64,000 nt of DNA from Selaginella tamariscina. Taxonomy: Eukaryota; Streptophyta; Lycopodiopsida; Selaginellales; Selaginellaceae. Numbering within the stretch: the stretch's first letter is position 1; the number at the start of each line of letters is the position of its first letter. The DNA is taken from positions 313,456 to 377,455 of the forward strand of contig PUQB01000010.1 in NCBI GenBank assembly GCA_003024785.1, written 5' to 3'. The notes beneath the pieces were generated by a model, which was given only the letters and a program-made list of their open reading frames with translations, was not told the origin of the DNA and ran no database searches. This document shows positions 1,028 through 59,223 of this stretch, piece by piece. The translations under genes and the position numbers were made by a program.

Positions 1028-1334
1028 TACATGAGAGTCTCTAAGCAAACTCTCCAAAGCTAGGTTTGGATAACCTTAAGTACACAACCTCACAAGTGCC
1101 TCACAAAAGAGCTCCTTGTTCAACCCTTGAATCCAAAGAGAACACCCCTAACCAACTGTGCCAATAGCACACCTAAATACAAAACCTAACCTCCCTTGAG
1201 TTGATGCCCAAGGCTTAACACCTTGATGTGAGCATAAGTACACCTGCTTACTAGAGTTCAACCCCTCAGCATTAACTTCATGAGACAACCCAAAAGGTGT
1301 GCCTTAGGCGTTGTATTGTGTGCCATCTAGCTTA
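1028..1334 (-). mobile_element. Segment of old C-family solo LTR C' (unit 1)
   Basis: This aligns with the middle of the C LTR (compare 32400-32715): AAACTC..CAAAGCTAGGTTTGGATAACC, CTCACAAAAGAGCTCC, GTTGATGCCCAAGGCTTA and GTGCCTTAGGCGTTGTA blocks occur in order. It continues after the A1 insertion at 12033. It ends in GCTTA (1330-1334), the target-site duplication of A1. Confidence 0.65.
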
Positions 1335-1708
1335 TGTCAAGCCACAATCCAAGAACTAAGAGGCTTGACTCAGGAGTAAGACAAGAATTAGGAACAAGAC
1401 AAGAGTAGGAAGAATTAGGAACAAACAAGAGCAGGACAAGAACTAGGACAAGACAGAGCAGGACAAGAATTAGGAAACAAGACGAGAACAGAAGCAAGTA
1501 ACAAGACAAGAACAAGTCAAGAATGATCGTAGAATGATTGGTTTGATAGTAACTGATTGTACAATAATTAGGTCAAAGCTTTTATGCTACAACTCAAGAG
1601 CTAATTAGCAAGAGCTAATCTAGTCATGAGCTAAAAATGATTCCCTTATCCTGTAGGTATATCCTGTAAGCATATCATGTATCTTATATCCTGTATCGGG
1701 TCGTGACA
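1335..1708 (-). repeat. 3' LTR of A1
   Basis: 374 bp, TGTCAAGCCACAATCC to GGGTCGTGACA as seen on the plus strand. The inner side abuts a purine tract on the minus strand, so this is the 3' LTR. The transcribed strand has a degenerate TATA-like CATAAAAGC in the middle. Confidence 0.8.
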
Positions 1709-2482
1709 GGACCTCCTCTAAGGACGAGTTCCACGAGTCTGGAACCTGGTTTACAGGATAATGTCAATGAAAGGTAGCAACCTTGGGAAAACATGGAGTA
1801 AATTGGATGCAGATTCTCAAATGCTATCAGTAAGCAAATAACCTTTCCAATCCACAAAGTATTAAAATTGGCAGTGATGAAGACGAGAATCAAGGATGGC
1901 TGCAACTTCGTACTTAGGTTCGTCGTCAATGACCACAAGAGGGGAGGAGAAGAAGCATGACCTGGAAGAGAAAAAGGATGATACGGTTCTAACAAAGAGG
2001 TTGAAACATATATGAAGTTTCAGTAGATGGTAGCTCTAGTCGAAAACTACAGGATTGACCTCGACCACAATTTGTAAGGGCCCAATCATTAAAAATCCAA
2101 CTTAAAAGAAGGCCTGTCGGTGCGAATATGCCGACGAAGAAGCCATACGAGATCATCAATCTTGTATGTAGGTGTCGGCTAATGATGAGCATCAGCATAA
2201 CGTTGTACCGTTTCCTGTCTGTTGAAGATGAACTTGGAGATCATCATTATCTGATGAAGATGCTAGAGACGATCCTATACAACAAGCGGAAGAAGAGAAG
2301 CATGAGGAAGCAAGGTTTTGCAAGGTCAAAACATGAATGGTAACCTGTAAGAGCGAAAAAACGTGAACGGAGTTGTTGTAAGCAAACTCCACCATAGGAA
2401 GAAGGAAGAAGGTCTAACTAGTTGTTGTTAGTAACTAATGAAGCAGCGAAAATATGGCTCTAAATCCACCGTACATTCTGAC
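1709..2482 (-). pseudogene. A1 integrase C-terminal part and chromodomain
   Basis: Minus-strand frames encode, from right to left, the end of the integrase core (MVEFAYNNSVHVF near 2395), a charged linker, the strand typical of gypsy integrase C-termini (RLELPST), and chromodomain pieces including VDWKGYL-like residues just before the purine tract. The chromodomain guides integration to marked chromatin in chromoviruses. The frame changes several times. The upstream part of the same integrase is displaced to 7422-8130 by B1. The unit 2 copy (27922-28702) reads more cleanly. Confidence 0.7.
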
Positions 2483-2834
2483 TGTAAGGATCATGGTTAT
2501 TTTTTGACTTTCACAGACTTGAACCCAAGACCTTTCCTAACCACATATGTATTAACCAACTTGTTCATATGATCCTAAATGCTAAATTACACCATCAACA
2601 GCAAGGCGTATATTCATACGCATGTTCCAGACCAGTTGTGGAGCCCACGTTTCAGACCAGTTTATTGAACCACACAATCCTCATGACCTCAAATATATAA
2701 ACAAGGTTTCAGTTCTAGGTTCTCAGAATCATTCAATACCATCTTCGCCTTGTGTTTCATTTTGTATTCATTTCTCTCTTAAATTAATCTCCTCCTTTGC
2801 TCAAAGGTTTCGCCCTTTAAACAAGGTCGTGACA
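2483..2834 (+). repeat. 5' LTR of B1
   Basis: 352 bp. It holds an antisense tRNA-like segment near its start and a TATATAA box at 2694-2700. The pyrimidine-rich second half (TTCATTTCTCTCTT) is shared by all four family B LTRs. Confidence 0.8.
2487..2576 (-). other. tRNA-like segment in LTR B (antisense)
   Basis: Read on the minus strand, the segment has a D-arm-like AGTTGGTTAA-type block, a T-arm with GGGTTCAAGTC (close to the Pol III B-box GGTTCRANYCC) and complementary ends (AGGATCAT with ATGATCCT) resembling an acceptor stem. The same block recurs at 28712-28805, 7080-7170 and 41215-41310. The anticodon arm is not convincing and it is not called as a functional tRNA gene. It may derive from a tRNA or SINE captured by the LTR. 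Confidence 0.45.
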
Positions 2835-2937
2835 ATTTCAATGATTCTAAGTAGTGACAAGCTTCTGCTTCCACTTGTCATCGATCCCATTTTCTTTCTT
2901 TCTTTTTTTTTTTTTCAATTTTCTTCTTCGACTCATC

Positions 2938-3830
2938 ATGTCTGAGCATGCTCTTCGTGAGCAAGTTGCTGCCAGCAGATCGAACAACTACACCTGGAGA
3001 ATGATCAGCTCTGACAGCGTGCGAATTCTCCAAAGCCGAAGATCATCATGCTCAAAAAGTTTGATGGTACCCGATCGAAGTTCTGAGGTTTTCTCAATCA
3101 AGTTGTCTGCGATCGTGATGCAGCCGAGGCGCTACAGCATAGAACCTATTAAGGTCAGATTAATCAGGTCGCTGCTTTTTGGTTCTGCTCTTTTTGGTTC
3201 TAGCCTTGCTGGAGAACAATGATCGATCCTTGGGAATTTTGAGATTTGTGGAGTTTGTGGAACGGTTCACGGCGATGTTCAGTGATGTGGATTGTGAGAG
3301 TGCTGCCATCACCAACTCCGCCAGCTTCACCAAGGGGGTATGTCAATAGCAGAGTACGTGTTCAAGTCCCAACTTCTTGCTTGTGATGTCACCTGGGAGA
3401 TCGTGCTCTCAAGGAGGTTTTCCGGTCGGTTGTTAGGACGAGATCAAAGACATGTTGCTGAATTTTGTTGTTCCGAAAACCCTCGCTAGCATGATAAAGT
3501 TGGCAATCCGTTGTGATAACCGGTTGATCGAGCGGAAACAAGAACGTCGGCATCCTTCTTTCTTCCTGGTGCCGTCTTCTTCCATTTCTCCAGTCCCTGT
3601 TTCTTCATCTGCTGATCCATCATCTTCCTCAGTAGAACCATCCGATGGAATTAGGCGATCACGTCGAGGCAAGCTTTTGCCAACCGAACGCTAGAAGCAG
3701 ATTCAGTACAAGCTTTGTCTATACTGTGGGGACCTGTACCACAAGTTGGAGAATTTTCATCGATGTCCAAAGCAAGCTCGTGAATTGTTGTTTGCTGGGA
3801 AACGAGAAGATCCAGCCCGAATAGGAGCCG
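2938..3830 (+). pseudogene. B1 gag
   Basis: Translation begins MSEHALREQVAAS at 2938. After several frame changes it gives the gypsy gag core (GGMSIAEYV-like residues near 3340, KDMLLNFVVPKTLASMIKLA near 3450-3500) and a Ser/Pro-rich spacer (3560-3640). A zinc-knuckle-like CLYCGDLYHKLEN follows at ~3715, with irregular CCHC spacing. Gag would build the particle and bind RNA. At least five indels break it. The unit 2 copy (29185-30000) keeps a 67-codon clean stretch of the core. Confidence 0.7.
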
Positions 3831-3939
3831 TCCGGTTGGATTGCCGTGGAACAACTCATGTTCCTCAAGGCTCTTCACTCAAAACATCTTCCCTTCCTCA
3901 TCTTGGATCCATTCCATCCACGAAGGTGTGCAAGCCGTT

Positions 3940-4330
3940 CCATGTTTCGGTGCAGCTGAAGACGCCAGAGGGAGTTCTCTGGTAAACTTTGGTGGATAGA
4001 GGAGCGAACGCAAATTTCATCGACAAGAATTTTGCTGTCAAGCACGGGATTCGTTCTACATCCTTTGAAGACTCCTGGTTCTGTACGGGTCATTGATGGA
4101 CGAGATATCAAATCTGGAGTGTAATAAATGACAAGAGTTCGTTGAGGTTTGCTTGCGGTGCTATGTGCAAAATCTCCTTCAGTGTTGTTTCTATTCTGGA
4201 CTCTATGATTATCCTTGGTTTGCCATGGATCGAGTTGGTGGACCCTAATTGGAGAGAACGTTCATGAACAGTTTCCCAGCTGTTTCAACTCCAGCCACAT
4301 TCTTTAATTCCGATCTTGTTCCAGTTCCTC
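3940..4330 (+). pseudogene. B1 aspartic protease region
   Basis: The protease is recognised from VDRGANANFIDKNFAVKHG at 3992-4050, where gypsy proteases normally read D-S/T-G-A. The catalytic Asp is present (3995-3997) but the next residue is Arg. Downstream lies a flap-like region and LPWIELVDP (~4220), common before the linker to RT. It is frameshifted after ~4060. Confidence 0.6.
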
Positions 4331-4439
4331 CTCCGCTTCAAGTTTGCATATCACCTTGAAGCAGTTCAAGAAAGATAGTCGACATTCATGTTCATGATCA
4401 CAGTCTATCTCGCTTTGCTAAGGATGTTCTGTTCCTTTC

Positions 4440-5130
4440 TTCCTGCCTTACCAAAGTAATATACTAATTTCGCAAACGTCTTCGACAAAAAGAAAGCTTC
4501 TGCCTTGCCACCGCACCGTGAGTACGACTGTCCTATCGTTCTCGTTGAGGGTAAGCAGCCATCCTCCAGTCCCATCTATGGTCTCTCACCGACATTGAGG
4601 AAATACATGAGGAAAATCTTGTCACCGATTTATCCGTCATTCGCAGATCACAGACTGGTGCCCCAGTATTCTTTATTTTCCAAGAGGATGGAAGTCTTCG
4701 GCTGTGTGGACTATCGGATCTGAATAAGGTCACCCTTCCAAACAAGTATCCTCTCCCGCTTGTCTCCGACATACTCGAGCGTCTTTCTGGTGCTTGATAC
4801 TTCATAAAGATCGATTTAAGAGGAGCGTACAATCTCATCCAAATTCGAGAAGGGGACAAGTGGAAAACAGCATTTCGTACCACGCTACATACATTTCAAG
4901 TACGTAGTATGCTGTTTGGCCTAATAAATGCACATGCTGTTTGGCATGACAAATGCACCTGCTGTTTCCAACATATAGCTAACGTATTTTGTAGACTTCT
5001 TAGATTTGTTTGTCATCATGTACCTAGATGACATCCTGATATTTTCCAAGACTCAAGAAGAACACGAATAGCATGTACGGTTAATCTTGGAGAAGCTTCG
5101 GAAGCACCCCTATTTGCCAAGTTGGAGAAG
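4440..5130 (+). pseudogene. B1 reverse transcriptase
   Basis: The N-terminal thumb/finger region (YDCPIVLVEGKQPSSSPIYG at 4520-4590) is followed by [20 protein letters not shown] (4802-4860) and the catalytic YLDD box in VIMYLDDILIFSKT (5012-5055). RT copies the element RNA into cDNA in the particle. Frameshifts occur near 4620, 4890-4960 (a small local duplication of the AAATGCACCTGCTGTTT block) and 5075. Confidence 0.75.
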
Positions 5131-5239
5131 TGCTCTTTCAGTCTGGACTGTATTGGAGTGGGAGAGACCACAAATATTCATGACGTTCGATGTTTCCTCA
5201 GGTTTGGAACTTCTATTGACGTTTTGTTCGGGATTTCTC

Positions 5240-5770
5240 CAAGATTACATTGCCATTGACGAAGTTGACTGGCAAGGATGTTTCATTTGTCTGGTCCTCT
5301 GAGGCTGAGGAGGTGTTTGAGTTCCTAAAGAAGGCGTTCACCTTGGCATCTGTTCTTGTCCATCCTGACCTTGCAAAACTATATTTCGTAGAAGCTGATG
5401 CCTCTTATTTCGCTATTGGTGGAGTGCTATCCCAGAAGGTCCAGATCATCTTCTCCATCCCATTTCTTTTCTTCCCGCAAGTTCACTGCACTTGAGATCA
5501 CTACGATGTTTACAATAAGGAGCTGTTGGTGATCGTCGATGCCTTTAAGGAGTGCGCGCAGATTCCTTGAAGGTTCCCTGCATGTGGTTAAAGTGTATTG
5601 TGATCACAGAACCTCCAGTACTAGGCAAACAGCACAAGTTCTCAATCGGCGTCAGGCGCAATGGGCACAGTCTTTGTCCCGGTTTGATACGTGATTATTC
5701 ATCGTCCCGATCGTCTAATGGCAAACCAGATGCTTTATCTCGTCACAGTTACCTAGCTCCAGTACCAGGT
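5240..5770 (+). pseudogene. B1 RNase H
   Basis: Residues KLTGKDVSFVWSSEAEE (5262 onward), [18 protein letters not shown] (5385-5440) and KELLVIVDAFK (5518-5550) match the gypsy RNase H/connection domain. The end of the domain is marked by NGKPDALSR(H)SYLAPVPGE (5720-5770). RNase H removes template RNA. Indels at ~5440, 5570 and 5630 break the frame. The CAATG at 5660-5664 corresponds to the site where element C entered the unit 2 copy. Confidence 0.7.
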
Positions 5771-5859
5771 GAAATCCCATTTGATCAACAAGAACAAATC
5801 ATTTTGAGCTCAGACCAGTTGTTGTTGAACGTGCTTTCCCGTTCTTTCTGCTCCAGTTA

Positions 5860-6620
5860 ACACTTCGTTTTTGATCTAATCCGAGAAGGTCTTCCTCAAG
5901 ACGAGTTTTGATTTCCTTGCATGTTCAACGAGTTCAGCCATTATCTTCAGGGTCACAACTACGAGATTATGCTGCTTTCCATCATCATAATGGGTTGCTG
6001 TACCACCACATCCAAATCTATGTTCCGGACGGAGAATTAAGGTTGCGAGTTTGTCCAACATTGCCATGACAACACAGATGCGGGACATTTTGGCATTCGG
6101 AAGATGATCGAGCTGGTATAGTGTGCGTTTTGGTGGCCTCGGCTTCGCATGTATGTTGAGAAATTTGTGCGATCCTGTGACACGTGCCAGCGTACAAAGC
6201 TTCTTTGTCATCGACCTATTAAACTACTACAGCCTCTCCTATTGCTCAGCAGCCATGGTCCTCCATCACCATGGATTTCCTCACTGATTTACCGCCTTTT
6301 AGAGGGTTTGATGCTGTCCTAGTCATTGTTGATCGGTTCTCTAAGATGGCGCACTTTGTTCCTTGCAACAAGACATATTTGAGTCTATGCTGCAGAACTA
6401 GTGTACCGGGAGGTGTTCCGTCTTCATGATCTTCCTGACGAACTTGTCACAATCAAGGTCCCCATTTCACTTCGGCATTCTAGTGGAGATTCCCATATTC
6501 AACTTCGGCATTTTGGCAGAGATTCCTAGATTGGCTAGGTATCACCAAGCTGTCTGCTGTCTTACTGCACATCATCCTGAAAATAGATGGCCAGCGGAGC
6601 GCACAATTCAAATTCTGAAT
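5860..6620 (+). pseudogene. B1 integrase
   Basis: The HHCC zinc region is visible as RMYVEKFVRSCDTCQRTK (6145-6200). The DDE core follows as [12 protein letters not shown] (6263-6300) and [17 protein letters not shown] (6318-6370). The stretch around 6460-6520 contains a ~33-bp imperfect tandem duplication of the FHFGILAEIP block, also present in unit 2, so it predates the segmental duplication. A degraded HHPE.N.PAERTIQ motif (6568-6610) carries the region of the third acidic residue. Confidence 0.7.
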
Positions 6621-6639
6621 AATATCTTTGATGTTCCAC

Positions 6640-7063
6640 AACCTCCTTCGGTTACAGTTGCTGATAAACCTGAGTTCAAGGTCACAATTCAAACTCTGAA
6701 ACAATATCTCCAGTGTTCCACGACCTCCTCCAGTTACAATTGCTGGTGAACATGAGTTCGAGGTTGTTGCAATTCTTGACTCCAAGCTTGTTCATGGTCA
6801 ACTCCATTATTTCGTTGACTAGATTGTTCTCATCTTGTTCATGCTCCAACGAACGCCCTTGGATTGTTCTCATCTTGTTCATGCTCCAACGAACGCCCTT
6901 GGGATTTTCTCATCTTGTTCATGCTCCAACGAACGCCCTTGGAGCCTACTGCTCATCTTGTTCATGCTCCACGAACGCACCCATCGAACGCACTTGGAGC
7001 ATGCTGTTCACTTGTCATGATATCCTGCAAAACTTGGACCAGTGACGCGCGATGCTCGTCATC
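6640..7063 (+). pseudogene. B1 chromodomain region with tandem repeats
   Basis: The chromodomain is recognisable as EFEVVAILDSKLVHGQLHYF (6757-6815). In normal copies this is followed by VDWxGYPPSExTWEPAAHL. Here that position is replaced by three copies of a 40-bp repeat (6821-6940). Because 40 is not a multiple of 3, the frame is broken. The tail ISCKTWTSDA.CSSSKGG ends at the purine tract. Confidence 0.6.
6821..6940. repeat. 40-bp tandem repeat x3 in B1
   Basis: Exact period 40 (6821-6860, 6861-6900, 6901-6940), each containing CATCTTGTTCATGCTCCAAC followed by GAACGCCCTT. A fourth partial unit follows. The related array in unit 2 (40480-41000) has period 33, so the expansions are independent. 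Confidence 0.85.
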
Positions 7064-7075
7064 AAAGGGGGATAG

Positions 7076-7421
7076 TTTAAGGATCATAAATTATTTTTTG
7101 CCTTTCACAGGACTTGAACCAAGCGCACATATATGTTAGCCAACTTGTCCGTATAATCTTGATGCATCAACAACAAGGCGTATATTCATACGCATGTTCC
7201 AAACCAGTTGTGGACCACCCAGTTGTGGACCACACAATCCTCATGACCTCAGATATATAAACAAGGTTCCAGTTCCAGGTTTCTTAGAATCATTCAACAC
7301 CAGTCTTCAGCCTTTGTGTTTCATTTTGTATTCATTTCTCTCTTGAATATAATTTCCTCCTTTCAGCTCAAAGGTTCCACCCTTGTTTTAAAGGTTTCAC
7401 CCTTTGCACAAGGTGTGACAT
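7076..7421 (+). repeat. 3' LTR of B1
   Basis: 346 bp, preceded by the purine tract AAAGGGGGATAG and ending GTGTGACA. A TATATAA box lies at 7254-7260. It shares the tRNA-like antisense block with the other family B LTRs. Confidence 0.8.
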
Positions 7422-8140
7422 TGATGCCCATTAGTTTGCGGATGATATTCTAAAGAAATATCCGCTTTAACTTGTAGACTTCGGAGAAGCTCTCGCCAAA
7501 ATCTGGACATGAATTTAGGGCCTCGATCAAAAACAATGCTCTCAGGAAGACCATGATGTCAGAACACTTTGCGCATCACCAACCAGCAGTTATCTGGCAT
7601 ATAGCTGGCTTTGTACATGTTAGGAAATGAGCTTGCTTGGTGAAACAGTCAACCACCACAAGAACTACATCAAATCCACGAGAAGGAGGAAGATCTGTGA
7701 GGAAATCCATAGAAATGGACCTCCAAGGAGCATAGGAACAAGAAGATGACAAAGAAGACCAAAGGCGCGTGACGAGGCATCTTTGACCTGTTGTAGGTGT
7801 CACAACTCTGTACAAACTTTTCCACAAAACATTGCAACCCAAGCCACCAATAGTTACGAGTCACCAACTCAACTGTCTTGGCCACACCAAAATGTCCTAT
7901 AGCCGGGGTATCATGACAATCCTGTACTGCACAAGTCATGTAAACACTAACAGGAATGTACAAAAGACCTCCCTATACAAAAGTCCGTCTTGTATGTAAA
8001 CAACTTGTAGTCTATATGGAACTGGAGGAAGAGAGCTTGTGATGTCAGGACTAATGTGTGAGAACACATTCTTTGCCAAGTCGTCTGTAGCCAATTGCAA
8101 ACGGATGTCCTGTAGAAGTGTTGAATCTGCTAGAGCTTGA
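7422..8140 (-). pseudogene. A1 integrase, N-terminal zinc region and core (part)
   Basis: Read leftward: LLYIPVSVYMTC, a zinc region HDTPAIGHFGVAKT with YWWLGL and [10 protein letters not shown], then [20 protein letters not shown] and [13 protein letters not shown] with the two core aspartates. These lie between about 7960 and 7610. The core continues across the B1 insertion at 2482. Integrase inserts the cDNA into chromosomes. Frameshifts and a stop near 7965 are present; the unit 2 copy (41806-42294) reads as one longer frame. Confidence 0.72.
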
Positions 8141-8730
8141 TGAACCTATAGTGCCACAAACCGAAATCTAATCAGGACCCAAAACACTTGCTTTTGACAG
8201 TCATATGTAGGATCGCCCAGGGTCAATGCAAGGTAAGAGCGCTTAAACAATGCATCTGCTTTGCCATTCAAAAAACTAGGCTTGTAAACGATGACAAAAA
8301 TCAAAACGTGATAGGAATTCCACCCACCTAGCCTATCACCGACTGAGAACTCAAGCCATTTGAAAAAAACTCGATTCGTAAAACTTGTATAGGATGTGCA
8401 ACACCTTCCAGGAAGTGCTGCCACTCCTCGAACAATCTACAATGGCCTTGAGTTCCTTGTCATGAATCTCGTAATTGATCTCCGTCGAAAGGAACTTACG
8501 AGAGTGAAAGGTTACAGGATGGAGTAACTTGTCTTCTCCAACTTGTGATAAGATAGAATCTACTGCAAAGTCCGAAGGATCTACTTTAATGAAGAAGGAA
8601 CGAGAAGGATCAGAATGTACTAAAATTGGAGCTGTTGTGAAGGTGCCTTAAGTGCTGTGAATGCATGTTCCACCTTATCGACCAATTGAAATCCTCTGTG
8701 CGCTTAGTGAGTTTTGTGAGTGGATGTACA
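8141..8730 (-). pseudogene. A1 RNase H
   Basis: The end of the domain is clear as FVIVYKPSFLNGKADALFKR (about 8300-8240), the usual gypsy RNase H terminus. Upstream minus-strand frames between 8440 and 8730 contain the FF(V)KVDPSD.AVD-like block in broken form. No continuous frame remains. Confidence 0.6.
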
Positions 8731-9530
8731 TGCTTGGAGAATCATGTATGAATCGCTTGTAGAAGTTTGCAAAAGTCAAGGAAACATTGTACGTCTTGTA
8801 CAGACTTGGGCCTCTCCCACTCCATGATAGTCTTCACCTTGTGCATGTCCATGGAAACGCTAGCAGGAAACGATGTAGCCCAAGAACTTCGCAGTATCCC
8901 TATTGAAAAAACATTTCTCCAACTTCGCATAAAGCATACTCGCGAAGCTTCTGTAAAACTAGTCGTACATGCTTGTCATGTGCCGCCTGGTCCTTGGAGA
9001 AAATGAAAATGTCATCGAGGTAGATCACCACAAACTGGTTCAAGAAGTCACAAAAGATGTCATTCACCATGTGTTGGAACATGGCTGGGCATTTATAAGT
9101 CCGAAAAGCATCACCATATACTCGAAATGTCCATACCTTGTACGAAAGGCAATCTTCCACTCATCTTCTGGATGAATGCATACAAAATTATAAGCCCTCG
9201 TAAGTTGATCTTCGTGAACACATTTGCTCCTCGTAACTGATCAAGAAGTTCCGGATCAAAGGCAATGGGTACTGGTTTGAATGGTGACTTGATTCAAACC
9301 CCTGTAGTCCACAACCAAATGCAAACTCCCATTTTCTTGATAAAAAGATAGGTGCTCCTGCAGGGGACTTTGAGTGACGAAAGAAGCTAGATGCCAAGTT
9401 GTCCTCAATGTATTGGTGAAGAACCTCCAATTTTGTAAGTGACAGTGCATAAATTGGTCTGAATGGTGGAGTCTTCCCTTTCGCAAGATCGATAGGGCAG
9501 TCGTAGGACCTGTGAATAGGAAAAACTACA
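8731..9530 (-). pseudogene. A1 reverse transcriptase
   Basis: Leftward, fragments encode YDCPID-like residues near 9500, NLASSFFRHSKSPAGAPIF (9405-9350), GSLHLVVDYRGLNQVTIQ (9330-9280), and the catalytic box [14 protein letters not shown] with YLDD at 9022-9011. LGYIVSPDGVSMD-like residues follow at ~8880-8840. The fragments lie in at least three frames. The unit 2 copy (42785-43730) keeps a 102-codon clean N-terminal part. Confidence 0.75.
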
Positions 9531-10126
9531 GCCTTGTGCTCATCAAAAACGTCCTAGAAGGAGTGATACTTGGATAGCAAGGAAGAAGTAAAAGGAGGAA
9601 AAGGGATTGAAAAACAGGAGAGTCATATACAGGAGAGGTAAAAGAGGACGTAGGAGTTACTTGAAAAGCAAAGAGATGAAAAGGAGCAGGATCAGTGGCA
9701 AGTTCATGCATAGTAGTGGTAAGAATTCGGAAAGAAGGAGGGAGCTGTGAATGAAAAAGAGGAAGGGTCTTGGGGGATGGAACATAAGTAAGAAAAGATG
9801 CAGGATTGGAGAAGGATGTTGACGAGTGTACAAATTGGAAGAATCCTGCACATAAGTCTTGGGATGCACAGGAGTGAGGAGAGCCTGCGAATGTGCTGAC
9901 GAATTGACAGGAAGTGGATCCTATTGAGGAGGAACCTTCAACACTGATACAAGATTAGAAGAACCCTGTACAGGAATTGTGAACTTACAAAAGTGAAGAG
10001 AGCCTGCGGATGTGCTGATGAACTAACATGAGGTGAATCCTATCAAGGAGGAATCTTCAACACTGATACATGAACATGCACGGTCAATCATGTAGCTTGT
10101 ACTGCCTCAGACACTAAGGTCATATC
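9531..10126 (-). other. A1 protease-to-RT linker
   Basis: Between the protease and RT, minus-strand frames give low-complexity Ser/Pro/Leu-rich sequence (for example SSTHSQ-like and PSITPS-like patches) without a recognisable fold. An imperfect internal duplication of the CTGATACA..AGAAGAACCCTGTACAGGAA block occurs at 9930-10100. Such linkers are common in gypsy pol genes. Confidence 0.45.
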
Positions 10127-10695
10127 CTACATGCGGGAAGGTACATGATTGATTCTGGCTGCCGGAGAGGAAAATGTAAGCGTCCTAAACCCCCAGTCGA
10201 TCTGAAGATTTGCAGCCAGGAACCATGGCATGCCCAAAATGATGGGAGTCGTCCAAGTCTTGATCAAGTTGAAGAAAATTGAACAGTTGAATGCGCCATG
10301 AGTGCAAAAGAGAAGTGTGGTAGCATGGGTAACTGTGCCAAAAGCAATCAGACGACCATCTGCAACCTTTACAAGAACTGCACGCTTCAACTTCACCACT
10401 AGAATGCCATGTTGAGTTGCAAAAGTGTCATCCATAAAGCATGCATTTGCACCAGTGTCTAACAGGGCAAACTCCTTGAGTCTCATCATTGAAACGAAAG
10501 TGTACAAGAAACTTGAGTGATGGGATGTATGAATAGCACCAATGGAGCCTGCACTTATGTCCAACTTTGCGGCTCCAAGGCAAAGTGAACATTGAACTTC
10601 AGCTTCAACTTCACGCATCTTGAACTTCCTGGCTTTAACAGGACATTCTGTCACCTTATGTCCTGCTTCACCACAATACAAGCATACGTTCTCAC
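10127..10695 (-). pseudogene. A1 zinc knuckle and aspartic protease
   Basis: One 184-codon frame is open here. It starts with a CCHC knuckle (YCGEAGHKVTECP, about 10680-10640), which in gag binds RNA. It then has the protease active site ALLDTGANACFMDD (DTG at 10459-10451) and the second protease half ILGMPWFL (~10225). The knuckle and protease being in one frame suggests a gag-pol fusion. It is the longest undamaged stretch of A1. Confidence 0.78.
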
Positions 10696-11531: not shown

Positions 11532-11628
11532 GATCGTGAAAGAAAGAAAAAGGAAGAAATAAGGGAGAAAACCAAGAAAAAAAAAGTAATTGAAAATCGG
11601 AGAGCAATGAAAGCAATTACTATCCAAC

Positions 11629-28702: not shown

Positions 28703-28707
28703 TTGAC

Positions 28708-45688: not shown

Positions 45689-45788
45689 GATCCGTGAAAG
45701 AAAGAAAAAAGGAGGAAAATAAGGGAGAAGAACCAAGAAAAAAAAGTAACTGGAAATCGGAGAGCAATGAAAGCAGTTACTATCAAAC

Positions 45789-49042: not shown

Positions 49043-49788
49043 TTTGGACGGCATTACAAGACAGCTTTTGAGCTGGGTTTAGCAAGTAAGAAAGCTCAAG
49101 GCAACATGGACGAGGAAGCTAAAGATCTGAGTGTTAAGCTTAAAAACATTCAAAGTTGTGCAAGAAGAACTTACAAGTAGCTCAGAACCGAGCTATCAAG
49201 TTTGTTAATGAGCACAGAAGCTTCCAAGAGTTCCAGGTGGGAGATTATGTATATCTCTGAGTGGTATTTGCCACACATAAGGCGGAACACTGTTATGGCC
49301 TTACGGAAGGGACACAATGATAAGTTGTCTCCCAGGTACTCAGGTTCTTATGAGATTCTGGAGCGTATCGATAAAGTGACATATCGACTACGGCTGCCAG
49401 AAAGTGAGGGTGCACCCAGTGTTTCATATTACCCAATTAAAGAGAGTACTCACAAGGAATGAGTCCCGGGTAGATTCTTTGTGGATGTACAAGGTTAATG
49501 ATACATGACCAGTTGAGTAAGTTATACTACCCTTGAGGACAAGGACTTGCTAATGGGGGAGGATTGTTATGACCCGTATAACGAATCAAAAAATATTCCC
49601 TAAAAAGGTATAAGCTAGAATATTCCTAAAGAGCTATATCTAGATTTAAGAGAATTAAAGGCACCCAATATTGGGAAGCCTTTTTGGAGAGCAGTGTATG
49701 GAGACTAGACACAGCTCGGGGGAGGTCGGGTGGTTTTGTGAGGGTCTCTAATTTGTACGTAGTGGTGCCTAACAATTGGTATCATAGC
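49043..49788 (+). mobile_element. Fragment of a fourth LTR element: integrase end, PPT, LTR, PBS
   Basis: Inserted between bases that are adjacent in units 1 and 3. It holds a gypsy-type integrase C-terminus (49165-49461; FVNEHRSFQEFQVGDYVYL, KLSPRYSGSYEILERIDKVT), a purine tract ATGGGGGAGGA (~49553-49563), a 210-bp LTR (49565-49774, TGTTATGACCCG to GCCTAACA), then TGGTATCATAGC (49777-49788), the initiator-Met primer site with one mismatch. An LTR with internal sequence on both sides is not a normal element end. Confidence 0.75.
49565..49774 (+). repeat. 210-bp LTR in the insert
   Basis: TGTTATGACCCG start, CCTAACA end, bounded by purine tract and primer site. Its right half matches 22913-23035. 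Confidence 0.75.
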
Positions 49789-50140
49789 CATCATCTGAAT
49801 GACTTTGAAAATGCTCCACTAACAACTCTTGTTTCATAAATGACTTCTGCAAAACGTATTGATAGCTTGGATGAAGATGGACATGGTGCTCTAAGTAGCA
49901 CTACGAAGAAAAGGCATGCAAACAAAGAAAAGACAAGTTTGGTTAAAGCAATTATTAAAGACATGAATGTACTTTTGAGTTCACGTTGAGACAAATTTTA
50001 CGAGACAATGGAGCTTACTTAAAGAAGGAAAATAATGCCTCTGTAGAGAAGTTTACTTTAGTAATAATAAAAAATTACCGATCCTATTTAGAGAGAAGGC
50101 AACATAAAGTAGATTGGCACACCATTTGTTAAACTTTTAA

Positions 50141-50533
50141 ATAGACATCCAATTTAAATTTTTGTTAAAGAATTATATTTGAACCCATTGGCCTTAATAT
50201 TTTCATTTAAATTAACTATAATTTTCTATGCAAACTTAACTCAACTTACAACCCAATATGATGGGAGCTAAGTAAGGGCAATGGAACGACCCTTATGATT
50301 AATATTAATAACCATATAAAGAATTTATAGATATCCTTCAATTTTACTGAATCTAAATTCATATTATAATAATTAAATATAAATGTACTATCGTAAACAT
50401 GTGTATTACAATTACAACGATGTTTCACAATAAAATATTATAATTCCACAGGAAGGGCATATTCTGTGTAAATATATATAGTAATATACTGTTTAAATAA
50501 AATATTAAAATAAACTCACAAATTTAAATGAAT
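50141..50533. other. AT-rich spacer (unit 2)
   Basis: Collinear with 15151-15522; nothing recognised. Confidence 0.4.
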
Positions 50534-50812
50534 TTAAAGTTTAGATTGAGCACTCAGCTTGAGCTCCCTCCGCAGGATCTTCCCAGCCGGTGACTTTGGG
50601 ATTTGTTTCAAGAATGTTACTTTCCTCACCTTCTTATATGGAGCAACCTGTAATGTATAACGTTTTTAATTTATTGATATGATAACACCCACGCACGCAC
50701 ATCACTTACTTGACTAGAGATGAAGTTTGTAACTTCTTCACTTGATAAGCGCCTTTGTGGATTCTTAACAACAAAAGCATGTGGAATCTCTCCTGCAAGT
50801 TCATCTGGGAAT
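50534..50812 (-). pseudogene. Peroxisomal 4-coumarate:CoA ligase-like, last two exons (unit 2)
   Basis: Exons 50812-50710 (103 nt) and 50647-50534 (114 nt), joined by a GT-AG intron in phase 0, are both open. The first gives PDELAGEIPHAFVVKNP, the linker into the C-terminal subdomain of adenylate-forming ligases. The second gives [12 protein letters not shown] and [14 protein letters not shown] with the catalytic Lys, then ends SKL, the peroxisomal PTS1 signal. Such enzymes activate hydroxycinnamates, fatty acids or jasmonate precursors to CoA thioesters. About 85% of the gene is absent: no upstream exon is seen in the 1.4 kb before the terpene synthase. It is a gene fragment although these exons are intact. 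Confidence 0.85.
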
Positions 50813-52239
50813 CTAAAAATATAAAACAGCTTAAGTTTATACAAAGTATACAAAACAACAGTATATAAACTACATTTTGTAGAAAAAATTTAAAAACATA
50901 AAACATAAAATACAATTAAAGAAAATAAAAATCATTACAAATATGATATTATAAAAAAGGATAAAATAAATAATATATATACATATTTGAATTATGTGTA
51001 TATATGTGTTTGTGTGGTGTGGTTTTCTCAATTAATAAACTCTTTTTGGTTTACAAATGCTAATTAAAAATGTAACATAATAACTCATCAAGTATTTTAA
51101 TGTTTCCTTAATTATATTATACTATTAATATAAATATATTATTTCGTTTAACTTTCTATAGAATTTAATAATTAATGGATATAATATAAAATTTTAGTAT
51201 ATACTGAAAATACACTATTTTGTTGAAGTTTCTTATTTATTTCTTTCATTTCCAATATTTGTGTGTATACATATTTGTTATTCACATATGATCACGAATA
51301 TGTCTCCTATAATATCCATACAATAATAATGTTAAAATTTTGAAATAAAATAATTTTGAGATTCCAAAATGTGAGTGCTTTTCAAATAAATTATTTTAAG
51401 AAAAAAGCTTTTAATTTCGAAACCTGAGAAATAATTGGGGTTCGAAAATGGTAATTTTGGGGTTTAATATATTAACTCATAAAGTATTTATTAATAATAT
51501 TATCTCGTGTTTAAATTTTGATAAATTTATAAATAAAGTCATGTATAAGAACTTCTCCGAAGGAATTCTTTTAATATAACTTGAAAGTCTCATATTATGT
51601 AATGGATCATATAAAAAGTATGAATTTTTACACCAAAGTGATTATAACAATTTCATTACAGAATTAATCACATGTACAAATTAAAAAAGAAAGAACAAAT
51701 AATCTTATATACAAAACTTTGTTTAAAACTTAGTTATAGTGTTTAGGGTTTAAGATGTTAAACCCAAAACTCCGGGATAATTAAAACCTTCGAACAAATC
51801 AAAATGCAAAATGTGGGTGCTTAAATAGTATTGGTGTGATCACAATTCATGTCACCACACACACACACACACACACACACACATAATATATGTGTGTGTA
51901 TAGGAGTGTGCGTGCGTGTGTGCGAGAGATATCTAAACTATAACGTAGATGCAACACAAACATATGAAAGCATATAAAGTGAATATTTCATATTAGAATT
52001 TTTGTGAACCGTTGGATATACCACAGTGAATATTCATAAATTTTATTCCTGCTCTTTACCTTTTTGACGTGTAATGATTATTCATTAATTTATTAAGGTT
52101 GACACTAATCGTAAATTATTAAATTACATATTGCAAACAAAGAACATAATGTTTTTTTGTCAACGAACTTACATTGGCACTGTTCCTTTTTTACAAAGAA
52201 AACTTTAATGACAACACGAAAAATGCGTGTCTCAAATAC
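50813..52239. other. AT-rich spacer between ligase fragment and terpene synthase (unit 2)
   Basis: Very AT-rich, no gene recognised. It has no homology with the 7.4 kb at the same place in unit 1. It may include the next ligase intron. Confidence 0.45.
51855..51925. repeat. (CA)n/(GT)n microsatellite
   Basis: About 14 CA units at 51855-51883 followed by ATAATATATGTGTGTG and GTGCGTGCGTG runs. Confidence 0.85.
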
Positions 52240-52259
52240 AAGTAATTGTGTCCGTCGCC

Positions 52260-52266
52260 TATAAAA
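52260..52266 (+). promoter_or_regulatory. TATA box of terpene synthase copy 2
   Basis: TATAAAA, 51 bp before the ATG, within the ~75-bp segment shared with copy 1 (from AATTGTGTCCGTCGC). Confidence 0.55.
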
Positions 52267-52316
52267 CTCAATGTCAATAACACCACATATATCAGAAAAA
52301 TTACAAAGACACATAG

Positions 52317-53473
52317 ATGGCTAGTGATAAGATCTGAAAGAGCTATCGGGCATCACTCATTTTGAGTTACCCCATATCAAAAGCACTATTCCATTAGAGT
52401 GTTATCCCAACTTGCTCGAGTCAACAACGAGGCCAACCAGCGGGCTATGGAGGTGCTGGGGATAACCAATAGCAAAGCTAAATTGAAGTTCATCCAGTCC
52501 AGACTGGTCATGTGTGGAAGTCTCATGATTCCAAGAGGAAAAGATGAAATCGAATGATCCTCGCCAGCAAAACATGCTGGCTTTGTTCGTGATCGATGAT
52601 GTATTGAGTCTCAACCTCGACTTGCAAAGCATTGCTGTGGTTGCTAGTGAATGATGACTATGACGAGTCTTGCAACACAGTACATGTGTATTATACACTT
52701 TGGAGGGAAATACTTACTTGAATTTACAGGGGGAGGATTTCAATATCCTCGCGAGTGGCTGTTCTTCCGAGAGGTACACTGTGAGCTCAGACGCCAGATG
52801 TCACCAGAATTATTCCAGCGCTACCACAGAGCTCTCGTTACTTTTCTCAGCACGGTCTTGAATGAGGAGGTTGAAAACCACCGTCTCAAGGACCAGATTC
52901 CAGATCCAGAGACATATCGCACCATGCGACGAAGAACTGTTTTTGCAGATGGCTCATCACTCTTAGTTGGCGAGTTCTGCTTGGGAGTCAACCTGGACAA
53001 AGAAGATTACGACTGTTCAGATTTCATCGACTTGATGGACGCCATTTCTGATCACTGTGCACTCACAAACGACTTGTTCTCTTTTAGGAAGGAGCTGTAT
53101 AGAAAAATGTACTACTTCAACTGGGTCTCTGTGCTTATTAACCATGGCCTTGGTCTCCAGGCAGCAATCAGCACAGTGTGTGACATGATTCTAAAAACCG
53201 AAGCCAATATATGGAAGCTGCAGAAGAGACTTGTTGAGAGAGCACGTATGAAAGGGAATAAAGATTTGCTCAAATTTGTACAAGCCATGCCTTGGCTGCT
53301 TCTGGCAACCTGAGGTGGAGTTTCATCACCGGGCGGTACCATGGATATAATAATCCTCTCATAACTGGCAAGCCGTTTCACGGAACCTGGTTGCTGCATC
53401 CTGAGGCTACCATTGTTCTTCAGCTTCAGGAATGCCACCCTATTCACATCCTTTTCTGATCCCATCAGGATAG
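52317..53473 (+). pseudogene. Microbial-type terpene synthase-like gene, copy 2
   Basis: Same start, intron position and end as copy 1. Exon 2 is open from ~52730 to 53313 and gives YPREWLFFREVHCELRRQM, the YRTMRRRT region, DAISDHCALT and the NSE motif NDLFSFRKE (53068-53094), so the region deleted in copy 1 is present here. The C-terminal RY pair (GRYHGYNN) is kept, where copy 1 has RF. Breaks: a one-base loss at codon 6 giving an immediate stop, one-base losses at ~52411, ~52549, ~52634 and inside the DDVFE motif (~52605), loss of one G at the intron donor, and one base at ~53289. All are single-base losses that copy 1 does not share. AATAAA at 53499. Confidence 0.82.
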
Positions 53474-54640
53474 CTTTGTTTTTCATTGAAGCTGGCTAAA
53501 TAAAGTGATTGGCTTTACAAATGTTCATCTGTTTACGATAAATACATCAAGCAAAAGAATATGCCATAAGATATACTTTACAGATTTTATATATTAAAAC
53601 CAAATGTTGAAAGTGTTAAAGGTAAGTCAATCGACACAAGTTAATTTTATATCACTAATGAAATTAAAATTCGTAATGAATTATGATGAATTAAAAGAGA
53701 TTCATAAGTTGATTTATTAAAATTAAAATATAACCTTTTAAATTATATTTATTTAGGCTTAAATCCAAAGTCATCTCTGTACCACAGATTTTTAGAAATA
53801 TTCCTGTTGTAATCTTCAGCATAAACAATTGCACACACTATATTTTATTTTGTTTATGTCTGAAAACATTCTTTCCATTGCAATCCTGGCTGAAATCATT
53901 TTTCCAATACCAATCAATAAGTCAAGGATGTAATCCTCAAGTTTTGTTAGAGTTAATAAAGATTTATAATAATCCTAGATTAATGAAGTTTTTTGAATGC
54001 ATGTTCTGAATGATATGGCATGACTCTCAAGCCTTGGATTGTGAAGAATTCCTTATAACATGTGAGAAATGACCACAAATGTGTGACTTTGTGCTAATCC
54101 ATTTGAATGTTGAGAAAGGCCGATTGGGAAGTTTAAATACTAAGTATATCCTTGCATTATGAAGATGATGTTTGTTTAATGTTTAGTTGTGGAAACTATA
54201 CAATTTTCTCAATTCCTTCCTTCAACTCCGGTACATTGAAGGGTATCTTTTGTACTTGTAAAACTTTACCTAGTAATAAAATGTCACAACATAAAACATG
54301 AACAATACCTAGCTCCTTTTCAACAAGTGTAGTAAAATAATTATACAATTCATCCTTTGTATAGATTTTCCTCATTTTTCTCTTTCCTTTCTCGTTCCAC
54401 CTTTAACACTTAATTTATTGATTAACAACTTCCTCTTTCTTAACCTTGCTTGTTGACCTTAAAGCAATCCCACTTCATTATAAATAATAGCTCATCATTT
54501 AGTACATATTGAAGCTCTAAGTACAAAGGTATGTCTTCAATTTCTTCATCAGTGATTTTGCATAGAAACTTACAATTCAAAATTAAAAGTAAAATTCTCT
54601 GCATGTTTGTCTATGCACTTCTTGATTTATTCAGATGTTT
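53474..54640. other. AT-rich spacer with a possible coding remnant (unit 2)
   Basis: Collinear with 24457-25654. Minus-strand 54440-54575 stays open (ITDEEIEDIPLYLELQYVLN) with substitutions relative to unit 1. Not recognised. Confidence 0.3.
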
Positions 54641-55404
54641 GTACCCCAAGGAGAACACCCCTAGCCATGTGTGCCAAGTAGCACACCAATTACGAGACTT
54701 GACCTCCTTTGAGTGAAAGCCAAAGGCTTAGCATCTTAATGCAAGCACATGCTTGTTATAGTATCTAGCCCCTTGGCATTAAACCCATGACATAACCTCA
54801 AAGAAGGTGCCTTGGGTATTGTATTATCTAGCCTAGTGTCACATGTTCATGTGACACTGTTTCCTAAGATGTGAGCTATCTTGATATAACTCCTTAAACT
54901 CAAGAGCTATAATTAGTGCCACAAACATGGTTCACAAATGTCAGCTTTAAAATCCTTTTATGAACCCTCAAGAACATGGTAAAGCAAACTTATCTCACTG
55001 GTAAAACGTGTACTTCGATAAGACTTCCCATGTGTGTGATCGATTACTGGATGAAAGGAGTTAACTAACTCCTTGGATGTGGCATACTCAAGTACAACAT
55101 TGTGGATTCATCAAAGCTAAGGGTAGGTTTACCCTTAGGGTGTGACGTACCCCTACCAACTAGAAGTTAAGCAGTGTGCGTTATCGACATAGCCTAGGCT
55201 TATGCCGTTGGTGAGGAAGGAACCAAACACTTCTTAATCTGTAGCATGCTTTCCTCACACCTATTTTACTTAATATATGTAATAGAGGTCCCCTCCCCCT
55301 ATTTTTCAAGTGGGCTAGTACAAAATCTTAGTTTCAATAAAAATATACTTGGTGAGTTTAATATAGCAACCTTAAACCCTAACCTAAGGGTAGGTTAACC
55401 CTAA
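54641..55404 (-). mobile_element. Truncated C-family LTR (C'', unit 2/3 border)
   Basis: Second copy of 25655-26425; hairpin at 54835-54858 (AGTGTCACAT-GTTC-ATGTGACACT). Confidence 0.55.
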
Positions 55405-55825
55405 TGTTAGAGGTTTTACATGAAGGGCCAACATGTGGCTGCCAAGTGGCCATCTAGCATCAAAACCATGTGTGAATAATGCTAAGTCTTTGAAGATGAC
55501 GCCAAGAGTTTAACTTAAATGAGGCAAGTCACTCAAAGTCCTACCCTAAGTCCCCTAGAATGGCTATTTCTCGAATCTTAAAGGATAACTCAAGTAAACT
55601 TTAGGATCATGTCCAATAGACCTAGTGCCTTAACCTTATCGAGGAGACATGTTTCACACATACCCTTTATTAGAGTTAAAGCATCATCATTTACCCCTTA
55701 AGGAATCACCCTCATCCGGGATACAACCCCTTTAGGGCGACAAGGGTGGTTTGAATAGTCAAGTTATACCTTAGTCCTAGGGTTAGTACTTAGTGAAGAC
55801 ACAAGTGTGCACCGTAGGTATACAT

Positions 55826-56166
55826 TGACCCAATACAAAATACATGATACGACCTATATGATACAGGATATGCCTACATGATATACATACAGGATATACC
55901 TATAGGATATCCTACAGATATGCTTATAGGATATACCTATAGGATAAGGGATTATTTTTATCTCATGCCTAGATTAGCTCTTGGAGTATCATTTTTAGCT
56001 TATGCCTAGATTAACTCTTGGAGTTGTGAATATAAAAGTTCCGACCTAATTGTTGTACAATAGTTACTATCAACACTAGTCATTCTACAATAATATTCTT
56101 GTCATGTTCCTTGTTCATTAGTCAAGCCTCCTTGTTCTTATCCTGCTCTTAGGTCATGGCTTGACA
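55826..56166 (+). mobile_element. Solo LTR of family A, plus orientation (unit 3)
   Basis: 341 bp, TGACCCAATACAA to ATGGCTTGACA, with TACAT at 55821-55825 on the left and TCAT (TACAT in unit 2) on the right. TATAAAA at 56031-56037. Confidence 0.75.
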
Positions 56167-56472
56167 TCATGAGTGCTCTACTAAGCAAACTCCCTAAAGC
56201 TAGGTTTGGATAACCCTAAGTACACAACCCCAGAAGTGCCTCACAAAAGAGCTCCTTGTTCAACCCTTGATCCCAAGGAGAACATCCTAGCAAGCGTGCC
56301 AATAGCACACATAGTTACGAAACCTAACCTCCCTTGAGTTGATGCCCAAGGCTTAACACCCTGATAGGCACAAGTACACCTACTTACTAAAGTATTCAAC
56401 CCCTTAGCATTAACTTCATGAGACAACCCCAAAAGATGTGCCTTAGGCGTTGTATTGTGTGTCATATAGTTT

Positions 56473-56496
56473 AGTGTCACATTTTCATGTGACACT
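56473..56496. repeat. 24-nt palindrome at the empty A site
   Basis: AGTGTCACAT-TTTC-ATGTGACACT, intact stem; the position where A1/A2 inserted in units 1 and 2. Confidence 0.75.
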
Positions 56497-57503
56497 ATTC
56501 CCAGATGTGAATTATCATGCATAGCCCCTTAGATTCAAGAGTTGCACCAGGTGCCATGAATGTGGCTCTCCAATGCCAACTCTAGAACCCCCCTGTGATC
56601 CCTTAGGAACTCGGTAAGGAAAACCTGTCAGCCAAGATCCACGCCCACAATTAGACAATAATATGAATGTGCCCTATGTGTTAGCTTGAATGTAGAGGAA
56701 GAGGTTGGAGACAAGCCTCAACCTTTAACCCTTGAAATGTGCATTCAATAAGACCTCCATGGATTTGCCAACGTTAAGAGTAAGCTACCCTAAAGGTGGG
56801 ATGTATCCTTATTGATGTGGCACAACAAAGGGTTGTGCCTTGATGACATAAGCTATAGCTTGCATCAATAGAATAATAAAAGCCCTGTCATTAACACAAG
56901 AATTCTCCTACATATATCCTATCTTATTTATGTGATGGAGCACCCCCCCTCCTCATTATGTAAATGGGCTAGCACAAAATCTAGCCTTGATTAATTAGAT
57001 GAGCTTAACCCTAAATAACTCCTACCTTTAAACCCTACCCAAGGGGGTGGGCCTATTAGGTAATTCTAGCTTCGCTTAGGGTTTCATGTAAAACCTAATG
57101 ACACTTAACTGGACATCACTAGATACTCAAGTGCACTAAACAGGTCTATTTCTTATTATATTTAATGTCCATCAACATAGTACAATATGTAACAATAATT
57201 AACATCCAAATTAAAAAAGGAGTTATAGTAAAAACTATGATACTAAGGTTGTTTCTAGTCATATCCGACACGCCAAACTCACCAATTAGGACGTCAAAAC
57301 AATGAGAGAGTTTTTAAATGGAAGTACTAGCTTTGCTTAGAATTTTCTATAAATACTTAACAAAACTATACCAGGCCATTACTAAATACCCAAGCTTACT
57401 AAACAGGTATGTTTCCTCAACAGTTAAGGCTTGTCAACATAGTTTGATAAGTAACAATAATTAACATCCAAAATAAAGAGTAGTCATAGTAAAAAATTTG
57501 ACA

Positions 57504-58770
57504 TTACATTAAACAATGTCTAATCAATGATGATCAACATCTAATCAATATTATTTAATAACTAGTCAAAGTCAATCAACACTAGTGAATTATAATGGTA
57601 TAATTCATAAATGAGTGAAATTTTAAATTACAATCTAGTGATGAATTTATTTAAGTTCTATTCAAGTTTTTCATGAATATGTTAAATTGAGTATGTCTAA
57701 GCTTAACATAAATTATCTAGTTGGTAGAGATTCGTGATGAACTAAAAAAGTTCATAAAAATTCGAGATGAAATTAAGAAAGTTCATAAAAAAAATTGATT
57801 TAACCATTATTAACTTGAGTTAACTCGATATAGTGATTGTTTAATTCTTTGACTTTGTAAATTAGGAAAAGATCTTTGTTGAGATTTATGAATGAATTAT
57901 ATATATTAATATCTACATATATATTTGTATGTAATAGGTTTGTACAAAATCCTTCCCATAGAAATCAATCTAGAATATATATTATCTAGGAATTAAACAA
58001 CATCCTAATATAATTAAATGCAAAAATGCAAAATAATACTGATTTTTAGGAATTATGGTGGTTTTCCATTAAACTTAGCCATTTTGGTTTAAAATTTTTT
58101 AAATGGGATTTACATTAGCTCTTAAATTATCTAGGTCCTTATTTAACATTTTTAAGGGTGTGATCATAAAGGGTAGTAGATTCGCATTGCCATTTAAAAT
58201 TTTGGAGGGAGAGAGAACAAATACACAAAAAACTAAATGTGGGGAATGAGGGGAGGGGGAGGGAGGGTCACTAGCCCTTCATAAAAGAAAGTGCTCTTTC
58301 ATTTTGGTGCAAGAGCACCCTAATTTGGCACCTAGCCCTAACTTGGGTCGTGGAGGAGCTTATTGCTTAAGCATGGATGAGGAGAGCATAAAGAACAACC
58401 AATTAAATAAGCATCTACCTAGCCTCTCCTTTCTTTTCATATTTTCTTTGATTATCATTCACACTTAAAGTTTACGAGTTGATCTATGACTAAACTTGAA
58501 TTTGAGCTTAACCATGGATGCCACAACCACTTAACTCAGCCATGGCTCGGACTTGAGCTTAGCTAGCAATGGCCGAGCTCTCAGAGCTAGGCCAAAGCTC
58601 AATTGGATTTGATGACGGGGCTTAGTTGAGACTTTAGTTGAGCTTAACCTAGCTTAATCTTTGTAGGGGCAGGCAAGAGGCCCGATTGTTTTTAGAACTA
58701 AGTTTCGACCAAGCTCTATTTGAGTTCGCTCTGAACTTGAACAAAATTTAATAAGTGGTTAGCAATTTAA
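57504..58770. other. AT-rich spacer (unit 3)
   Basis: Collinear with 13079-14270 and 47298-48511, with about 80 extra bases (58165-58265, GGGGAGGGGGAGGGAGGG-type run). No gene seen. Confidence 0.5.
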
Positions 58771-59223
58771 AATGAGTGAGAGACTTAGAGAATTTAGAGC
58801 ATGTGAAGATAATGAAAATTGCAATATAATTGAAGAGATTGATAAAGGTTGAGGCACTTTTGGAGCTAAATCATAGGGCCAAGGTTTTGGAGGCTCTTCA
58901 CATGATATTGGTGGTTAATCACGAGGGAAATAAGAAACACATGACAACACTCAAAATTGGTTAATGGAAGAGACAAGACCAAAAGGTTTTCATTATTGTG
59001 ATGGAGAACAATGTCCTGGATGATCATGATGAAGAATAATGTCATAAAAGTGGGCAAACTTGTTACTAATTACAAGGCTATTCATGACCATAATAGAAAT
59101 ACAATAAGCAAACAAGTGTTGCTCCTTATTCAAGCTTATTGAGGCAACATAATCGAGACCTTGAATTACATAAGATGGAGTTAGATCTGTTTGATCTTTT
59201 AGAAGCTGCATGGCCATCATCTG
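58771..59223 (+). pseudogene. Unidentified coding-like remnant (unit 3), cut by copia
   Basis: MSERLREFRACEDNENCNII (58770-58830), ALHMILVVNHEGNKK and HNRDLELHKMELDLFDLLEA (59143-59205) are readable in changing frames. It ends at CATCATCTG, where the copia LTR begins. Not recognised. Confidence 0.3.

Follow-up and report, generated by a model that had tools for sequence, protein, structure and literature searches.

We analyzed a stretch of 64,000 nucleotides of the Selaginella tamariscina genome (contig C2, PUQB01000010.1, 313456-377455; hereafter the window), in which a microbial-type terpene synthase and the end of a 4CL-like CoA ligase recur in tandem units among nested long terminal repeat (LTR) elements. 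The genome searched comprised 300,702,823 bases in 1391 contigs. Positions without a contig name refer to the window.

Layout of the array

Self-comparison of the window delimits the following tandem units.
982-27209, plus strand: tandem unit U1
27210-~56119, plus strand: tandem unit U2
56120-59222, plus strand: in-window part of tandem unit U3, which continues at C2:379172 past the window

U1 and U2 are connected by long collinear direct repeats, namely 982-5663 with 27210-31872, 7008-14780 with 41138-49042, 14781-15820 with 49783-50834, and 23241-27178 with 52234-56141, and a partial third copy aligns at 56109-59223. The collinearity is broken by unit-specific insertions, and U3 is cut at 59223 by a copia-like element. 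The original prediction from the letters of the window had described a tandem segmental duplication and, in a region rich in transposable elements (TEs), the local amplification of the locus with the synthase; these repeats bear out the former and support the latter. The predicted distance of 28,994 bp between the synthase starts is exact, as the ATGs are at 23323 and 52317. Its count of three copies holds for the direct units but is too low for the contig, since C2 carries four ligase blocks, at 328236, 363238 and 379172 in direct and at 422275 in inverted orientation. Likewise, the same order of parts in each unit holds for the collinear repeats, but the ligase-synthase interval is unrelated in U1 and U2. 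Two claims were abandoned. The LTR remnants C' and C'' had been taken as unit ends; they are successive parts of a single old LTR, and the repeat crosses the border. A coding-like remnant had also been proposed; a six-frame Pfam search of 13000-14990 (E up to 0.05) gave a lone zinc-finger match that scored 15.1 bits (cut-off 27). The microbial type of the synthase, the differing regions upstream of it, the unity of C' and C'' and the extension of the array past the window go beyond that prediction.

Among 20 genome stretches compared with the window, we found an inverted copy at C2:422261-441657, which carries two synthases, the spacer, C'', C', a copia-like element and the ligase block. A genome search with the ligase block gave 17 match rows, six of which were at least 91% identical (four on C2 and two on contig C802, at 120194 direct and 162199 inverted); the other 11 were 66-83% identical over at most 420 bp. 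Both unit borders also recur on C802, in unchanged order: 78172-80910 corresponds to the U1/U2 border (window 25406-28135), and 111652-115069 to the U2/U3 border (window 55566-58977), where the LTR match is again uninterrupted. Furthermore, C802 and C2 are collinear at 115174-119117/372433-376356, 119136-125999/378103-384952 and 172000-181999/432196-442238. Genuine local amplification, in which the segment was copied within an array, is the best explanation overall, and we regard it as very probable. A segment with a 4CL-like CoA ligase and a microbial-type synthase has multiplied over ~130 kb; three of its units are direct and one is inverted. The array shows a known route of gene-family growth and is not a new kind of system.

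The closest comparison is the MTPSL cluster on chromosome 6 of Marchantia polymorpha, which, in the excerpted text of PMC12890914, has five microbial-type synthases of a fungal-like group; each gene is accompanied by the same transposon residues, and the cluster shows structural variation. As far as that excerpt goes, both loci have microbial-type synthases clustered beside repeated transposon remnants, whereas here whole units of 26-29 kb with the ligase and nested LTR elements are repeated, one copy being inverted. We found no published description of the S. tamariscina array in the literature, judged by title or the start of the abstract.

The terpene synthase and the ligase

The genes and the intervals between them are as follows.
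15526-15638, minus strand: ligase last exon, U1; frame broken, ends SKL
15695-15797, minus strand: ligase penultimate exon, U1; frame broken
15833-23230 (end approximate), no strand assigned: U1-type ligase-synthase interval; pieces also in U3 past the window and on contig C778
23323-24453, plus strand: microbial-type terpene synthase, U1 copy; 31-bp deletion and 1-bp indels
50537-50650, minus strand: ligase last exon, U2; 4CL-like, ends SKL
50707-50811, minus strand: ligase penultimate exon, U2; matches 4CL chains
50835-52225 (end approximate), no strand assigned: U2-type ligase-synthase interval; also beside several other synthase copies in the genome
52317-53472, plus strand: microbial-type terpene synthase, U2 copy; nine 1-bp deletions

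The ligase on the minus strand and the synthase on the plus strand are arranged head to head. By sequence, the synthase is of the microbial type and not of the classical plant type. The U2 frame matches Pfam PF19086 (Terpene_syn_C_2) with 85.9 bits and the U1 pieces with 35.6 and 27.9 bits (cut-off 23.7), and no other terpene synthase family, including the plant TPS profiles, was among the matches listed at E up to 1. Eight solved relatives were listed, including (+)-caryolan-1-ol synthase, presilphiperfolan-8-beta-ol synthase and the microbial aristolochene synthase (best E 2.1e-11). One scan for relatives in prokaryotes gave 36 pattern matches, of which none was confirmed. U1 retains NDLFSFRKE and DDVFES, the latter a DDxxE-like variant of DDxxD; U2 retains NDLFSFRKE and FVIDDV, and the NDxxSxxKE motif is kept in both. 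Judged by its family, the enzyme would make volatile or defensive terpenes.

No long intron interrupts the synthase. In Selaginella moellendorffii, eight MTPSL members have zero or one intron according to the excerpt of PMC7826640, and the excerpted review PMC6779861 gives 0-7 introns and cites surveys suggesting that such genes are missing from seed plants and green algae. Judged by the same excerpts (PMC7826640, PMC6779861), our copies are like the S. moellendorffii MTPSLs in being single-domain, with an Asp-rich and an NSE-type motif and few introns; unlike those accounts, which concern enzymes and not array structure, the copies here are embedded in an LTR-rich array.

A genome search with a 1131-bp synthase query gave 23 match rows, 15 of them near full length including U1 and U2, and some of these 15 represent one locus on two haplotype contigs. 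The most divergent near-full-length relative (85%), at C1248:276520-277653, has an open frame of 375 aa, the first ~30 residues of which are off the ATG frame; it matches PF19086 with 78.5 bits over residues 82-286 of 375. At a candidate 50-bp GT-AG intron site, C1248 reads through openly, and the 15 other aligned copies lack four of its bases (C849:683k, C802:99k and C2:439k lack more than four).

The predicted ligase end is real, as its last two exons match 4CL chains (best E 1.8e-5 for 50537-50650 and 0.0015 for 50707-50811 in U2). The two exons align to residues 471-504 and 503-535 of PDB 5bsm, and 3a9u is also related by sequence. In the profile AMP-binding_C, the window exons cover the abutting positions 21-52 (E 0.021) and 54-76 (E 0.091), both below the curated cut-off. 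The SKL end suggests a peroxisomal 4CL-like member. In this alignment the gene resembles 4CL and 4CL-like acyl-CoA ligases, but unlike them U1 and U2 show the last two exons only. The U3 ligase past the window is much fuller, with matches to PF00501 at positions 8-210 (E 1.4e-32) and 200-328 (E 1.3e-14) and a frame containing SSGTTG, which we take to be the ligase motif. The ancestral ligase was therefore probably far more complete than the remnants in U1 and U2.

On the minus strand of U2 up to the synthase, no ligase exon was found past the last two, and the same searches recovered both known exons. Three long-frame searches for upstream ligase exons in U1 gave no match, yet they missed the known exons too. 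Among the best candidates only, no synthase match fell in C2:366924-436417, where the U3 ligase lies. Complete neighbouring pathway genes, as in an intact biosynthetic gene cluster, were not found within one unit.

The U1 and U2 synthases share the coding region and ~80 bp upstream, beyond which the upstream DNA is quite different. Homology between the two ligase-synthase intervals was considered and rejected, as the only matches were short, AT-rich and 53-60% identical, and fell on both strands. At about 17.0-17.2 kb the U1 interval has a weak Myb/SANT-like match of 21.0 bits, against a cut-off of 21.7. A DDE_Tnp_4 match of 23.4 bits, below the cut-off of 24.8, lies upstream of the U3 ligase at about C2:387.3k; in U1 the Myb/SANT-like match lies further on. 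Within the U1 interval there are also two direct repeats of ~500 bp at 17933-19918, 86.5% identical and separated by 1.5 kb, which may represent a small LTR-like element with unclear ends.

It is an even question whether the synthases of the window are plain decayed pseudogenes carried along by TE turnover, which would be compatible with local amplification. The 31-bp deletion in U1 favors decay. It lies just before the NDxxSxxKE motif and, because of it, DDVFES and NDLFSFRKE are in separate frames; it is found whole in U1 alone among 16 aligned copies and is likely real. The U1 synthase is therefore probably non-functional, and both copies may be. Constraint between U1 and U2 appears weak, with 18 nonsynonymous changes at 800.5 sites (pN 0.0225) and nine synonymous changes at 222.5 sites (pS 0.0404), in a comparison of 342 codons with frames assigned by hand and one stop codon, in both copies, at a segment edge. 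Decay is also consistent with frame-changing indels in all 15 aligned copies other than C1248, and with the U2 counterpart on C802 (102576-106921), which is split by a ~4.3-kb insertion with flanks overlapping by 5 bp (window 52601-52605). In the other direction point the NDxxSxxKE motif kept in both copies and the nature of the U2 lesions, which are 1-bp and mostly private. Eight of the nine 1-bp deletions in U2 are absent from the 15 other aligned copies. A stricter count gives seven private deletions beside eight private substitutions, which, set against copies such as C1248 and C849:683k, points to local sequence error. The ratio of private deletions to substitutions among the 16 aligned synthases is 7:8 in U2, 11:10 in C1113 and 1:5 in U1, and 0:52 in C1248, 0:35 in C849:683k and 1:22 in C849:557k.

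Between U1 and U2, windows with more substitutions do not have more 1-bp indels (35 windows, Spearman 0.14, p 0.41). Of 167 such indels, 103 lie within runs, which make up 0.487 of bases (p 8e-4); counted as deletions, 112 fall in U1 and 55 in U2. The three-way block has 17, 2 and 13 private 1-bp deletions in U1, U2 and U3, and 2, 1 and 5 private insertions. Contig pairs under 1% divergence (five stretches) still show 3.7-6.5 1-bp indels per kb. Many 1-bp frameshifts are probably errors of unpolished long reads, and most lesions of the U2 synthase may be sequence errors. Frameshifts in this assembly should not be read as pseudogenes without checking.

Nested LTR elements and the history of the units

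The repeats of the window are as follows.
1-981, plus strand: right end of an A-family (gypsy-like) element; resembles 11337-12030 and adjoins the reverse A LTR at the U1 left edge
1028-1334, plus strand: C' LTR 5' piece, U1; LTR positions about 507-849
1335-12032, plus strand: nested gypsy block splitting C', U1; remnants on both strands, GCTTA each side
12031-13078, plus strand: C' LTR 3' piece, U1 (LTR alignment)
25625-26383, plus strand: older C-family LTR fragment, U1 3' spacer (LTR alignment)
26603-26854, plus strand: C'' at the U1/U2 border; positions 236-518 of the same LTR as C'
26855-27253, minus strand: A-family LTR between C'' and C', U1/U2 border (self-comparison and junction letters)
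27254-27568, plus strand: C' LTR 5' piece, U2 (LTR alignment)
27569-46257, plus strand: gypsy block in U2 with a C-family element nested inside (self-comparison, domains)
31868-39168, plus strand: younger C-family LTR element, U2 only; CAATG each side
49043-49782, plus strand: U2-only insertion of 740 bp; fragment of a Tf2-1-type integrase SH3 domain, 43.5 bits
55409-55824, plus strand: C'' at the U2/U3 border; LTR positions 1-170 and 236-522
55825-56167, minus strand: A-family LTR, U2/U3 border (self-comparison and junction letters)
56168-57503, plus strand: C' LTR in U3, unsplit; site without the gypsy block near 56470
59223-62899, minus strand: copia-like element within U3; domains RVT_2 (135.3 bits) and gag_pre-integrs (50.0 bits)
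62900-64000, minus strand: C-family LTR adjoining the copia-like element; leaves the window

At the U2/U3 border, C'' covers LTR positions 1-170 and 236-522 and C' positions 521-1735, with the reverse A-family LTR between them. The gypsy block is flanked by GCTTA in both U1 and U2, and in U3 the block is absent and the LTR site empty. Five of six frames of the block (U1 and U2) matched, with RVP_2, Integrase_H2C2 and RT_RNaseH_2 on opposite strands, a domain set that we take to be gypsy. The two LTRs of the U2 C-family element differ at 52 of 1757 sites (3.0%), and the two large gypsy stretches differ between U1 and U2 by 7.6% and 8.3% in MAFFT alignments (lower, 5.0% and 5.6%, in BLAST alignments); the C element is therefore the younger nesting. 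Its LTRs are ~1.75 kb, and its internal part has no long open frames, so that it is possibly non-autonomous. The 49043-49782 insertion has an integrase-end fragment followed at its right edge by letters that we liken to a primer-binding site, an odd order for a simple truncated element. GAGTC at the 981/982 junction may be a target duplication, of which only the right-hand copy lies within the window.

These nested insertions suggest the following order. The array would have been present with an empty LTR; the gypsy block would then have entered the LTR in the ancestor of U1 and U2; the gypsy-bearing unit would have been duplicated into U1 and U2; and finally the C element and another insertion would have entered U2, and the copia-like element U3. 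Over 12030-14795, 171 sites unite U1 and U2 against U3, compared with 44 for U1 and U3 and 45 for U2 and U3 (three all different), which makes U1 and U2 sisters there. Most likely, the units multiplied through ectopic (unequal) recombination, with the repeated C-family and A-family LTRs on the flanks of every unit as partners, and later exchanged sequence with one another. In a synthase tree of 17 rows, U2 groups with C802:106k, C802:176k and C2:436k (98/98), and U1 is unresolved near C1259, C1113 and C778. The ligase side of U2 thus goes with U1 but its synthase with other copies, which exchange between units would explain. The histories of the two U2 halves seem to differ, and unequal exchange accounts for this best. 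The locus is a nested-insertion record of the spread of a microbial-type terpene synthase in a plant genome.

In MAFFT alignments, U1 and U2 differ by 2.0-3.3% substitutions in the synthase and in the stretch that starts at 13.0 kb and includes the ligase block, less than in the gypsy stretches. We considered gene conversion between units for the low divergence at 13.0-24.7 kb and dropped it, as the contrast is mostly transitions in TEs and transversions vary less, although pooled transversions are still somewhat lower at 13.0-24.7 kb. A transition excess in TE sequence is expected from methylated cytosines.

Copying by transposition, that is, capture or transduction by an LTR element, or retrocopying, in place of segment recombination, is unlikely. 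The synthase without a long intron, the many synthase copies on other contigs without a ligase-block match, and the Marchantia cluster, ascribed to transposon activity in the excerpt of PMC12890914, would suit it. The homology between units, however, spans ligase exons and intron, spacers and nested insertions in both orientations, which a retrocopy would not carry. More doubtful still is the proposal that a divergent peroxisomal 4CL-like ligase and the microbial-type synthase formed a former working two-gene module, repeatedly multiplied and reshuffled by LTR recombination; if it were true, synthase copies would gain new upstream regions by reshuffling.

The array on a second contig

The following points count against local amplification followed by exchange. 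The U1 and U2 synthases are not mutually nearest copies. In the left 211 of 381 columns of the border alignment, 15 sites support U1 with U2, 12 U1 with U3 and nine U2 with U3, and one site shows three letters, so that no sister pair is clear; right of column 211 the counts are 12/0/0 (Fisher p 3.9e-4, the split being chosen after looking). A simple crossover in the left border predicts U2 with U3, and a single crossover there is therefore unsupported. The 20 kb to the left of the window (3,848 bases of which are N) have no match of at least 400 bp to the window, and the array shows no clean left end, since the A-family element at 1-981 adjoins a reverse A LTR. C802:66000-78171 has no match of at least 250 bp, so the U1 synthase was not found there. 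Substitutions between C2 and other contigs in eight stretches are 0.28, 0.95, 0.94, 0.32, 4.16, 6.12, 0.93 and 2.18%; the 4.16% and 6.12% belong to the C2-C802 border stretches and the other four C2-C802 stretches are at 0.28-0.95%, so that the contigs are not a plain allelic pair at the borders. This high divergence speaks for exchange or older divergence there. The evidence for the array comes from assembled contigs.

The original prediction had offered another reading, in which the assembler joined two haplotypes of a single unit end to end as U1 and U2. We consider it hardly credible: the apparent haplotype contigs C802 and C452 in the assembly, the difference of only about 2-3% between the non-TE parts of U1 and U2, and the diverged C2/C802 borders, which show that strongly diverged haplotypes exist here, would fit it, but three direct ligase blocks and one inverted on one contig exceed two haplotypes, divergence between contigs is 0.28-0.95% in five of the eight stretches against 7.6-8.3% (BLAST 5.0-5.6%) in the gypsy stretches of U1 and U2, and both borders occur on C802 in the array order, each most similar to its own counterpart. 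In a six-row spacer tree, a branch of 100/100 separates the window U1/U2 border and C802:78k from the window U2/U3 border, C802:109k and two inverted copies. For the U1/U2 border of the window, the distance is 4.6% to C802:78k and 7.8-8.2% to the four remaining rows; for the U2/U3 border it is 2.7-3.0% to C802:109k and to both inverted copies. We read this as a real array present on both haplotypes.

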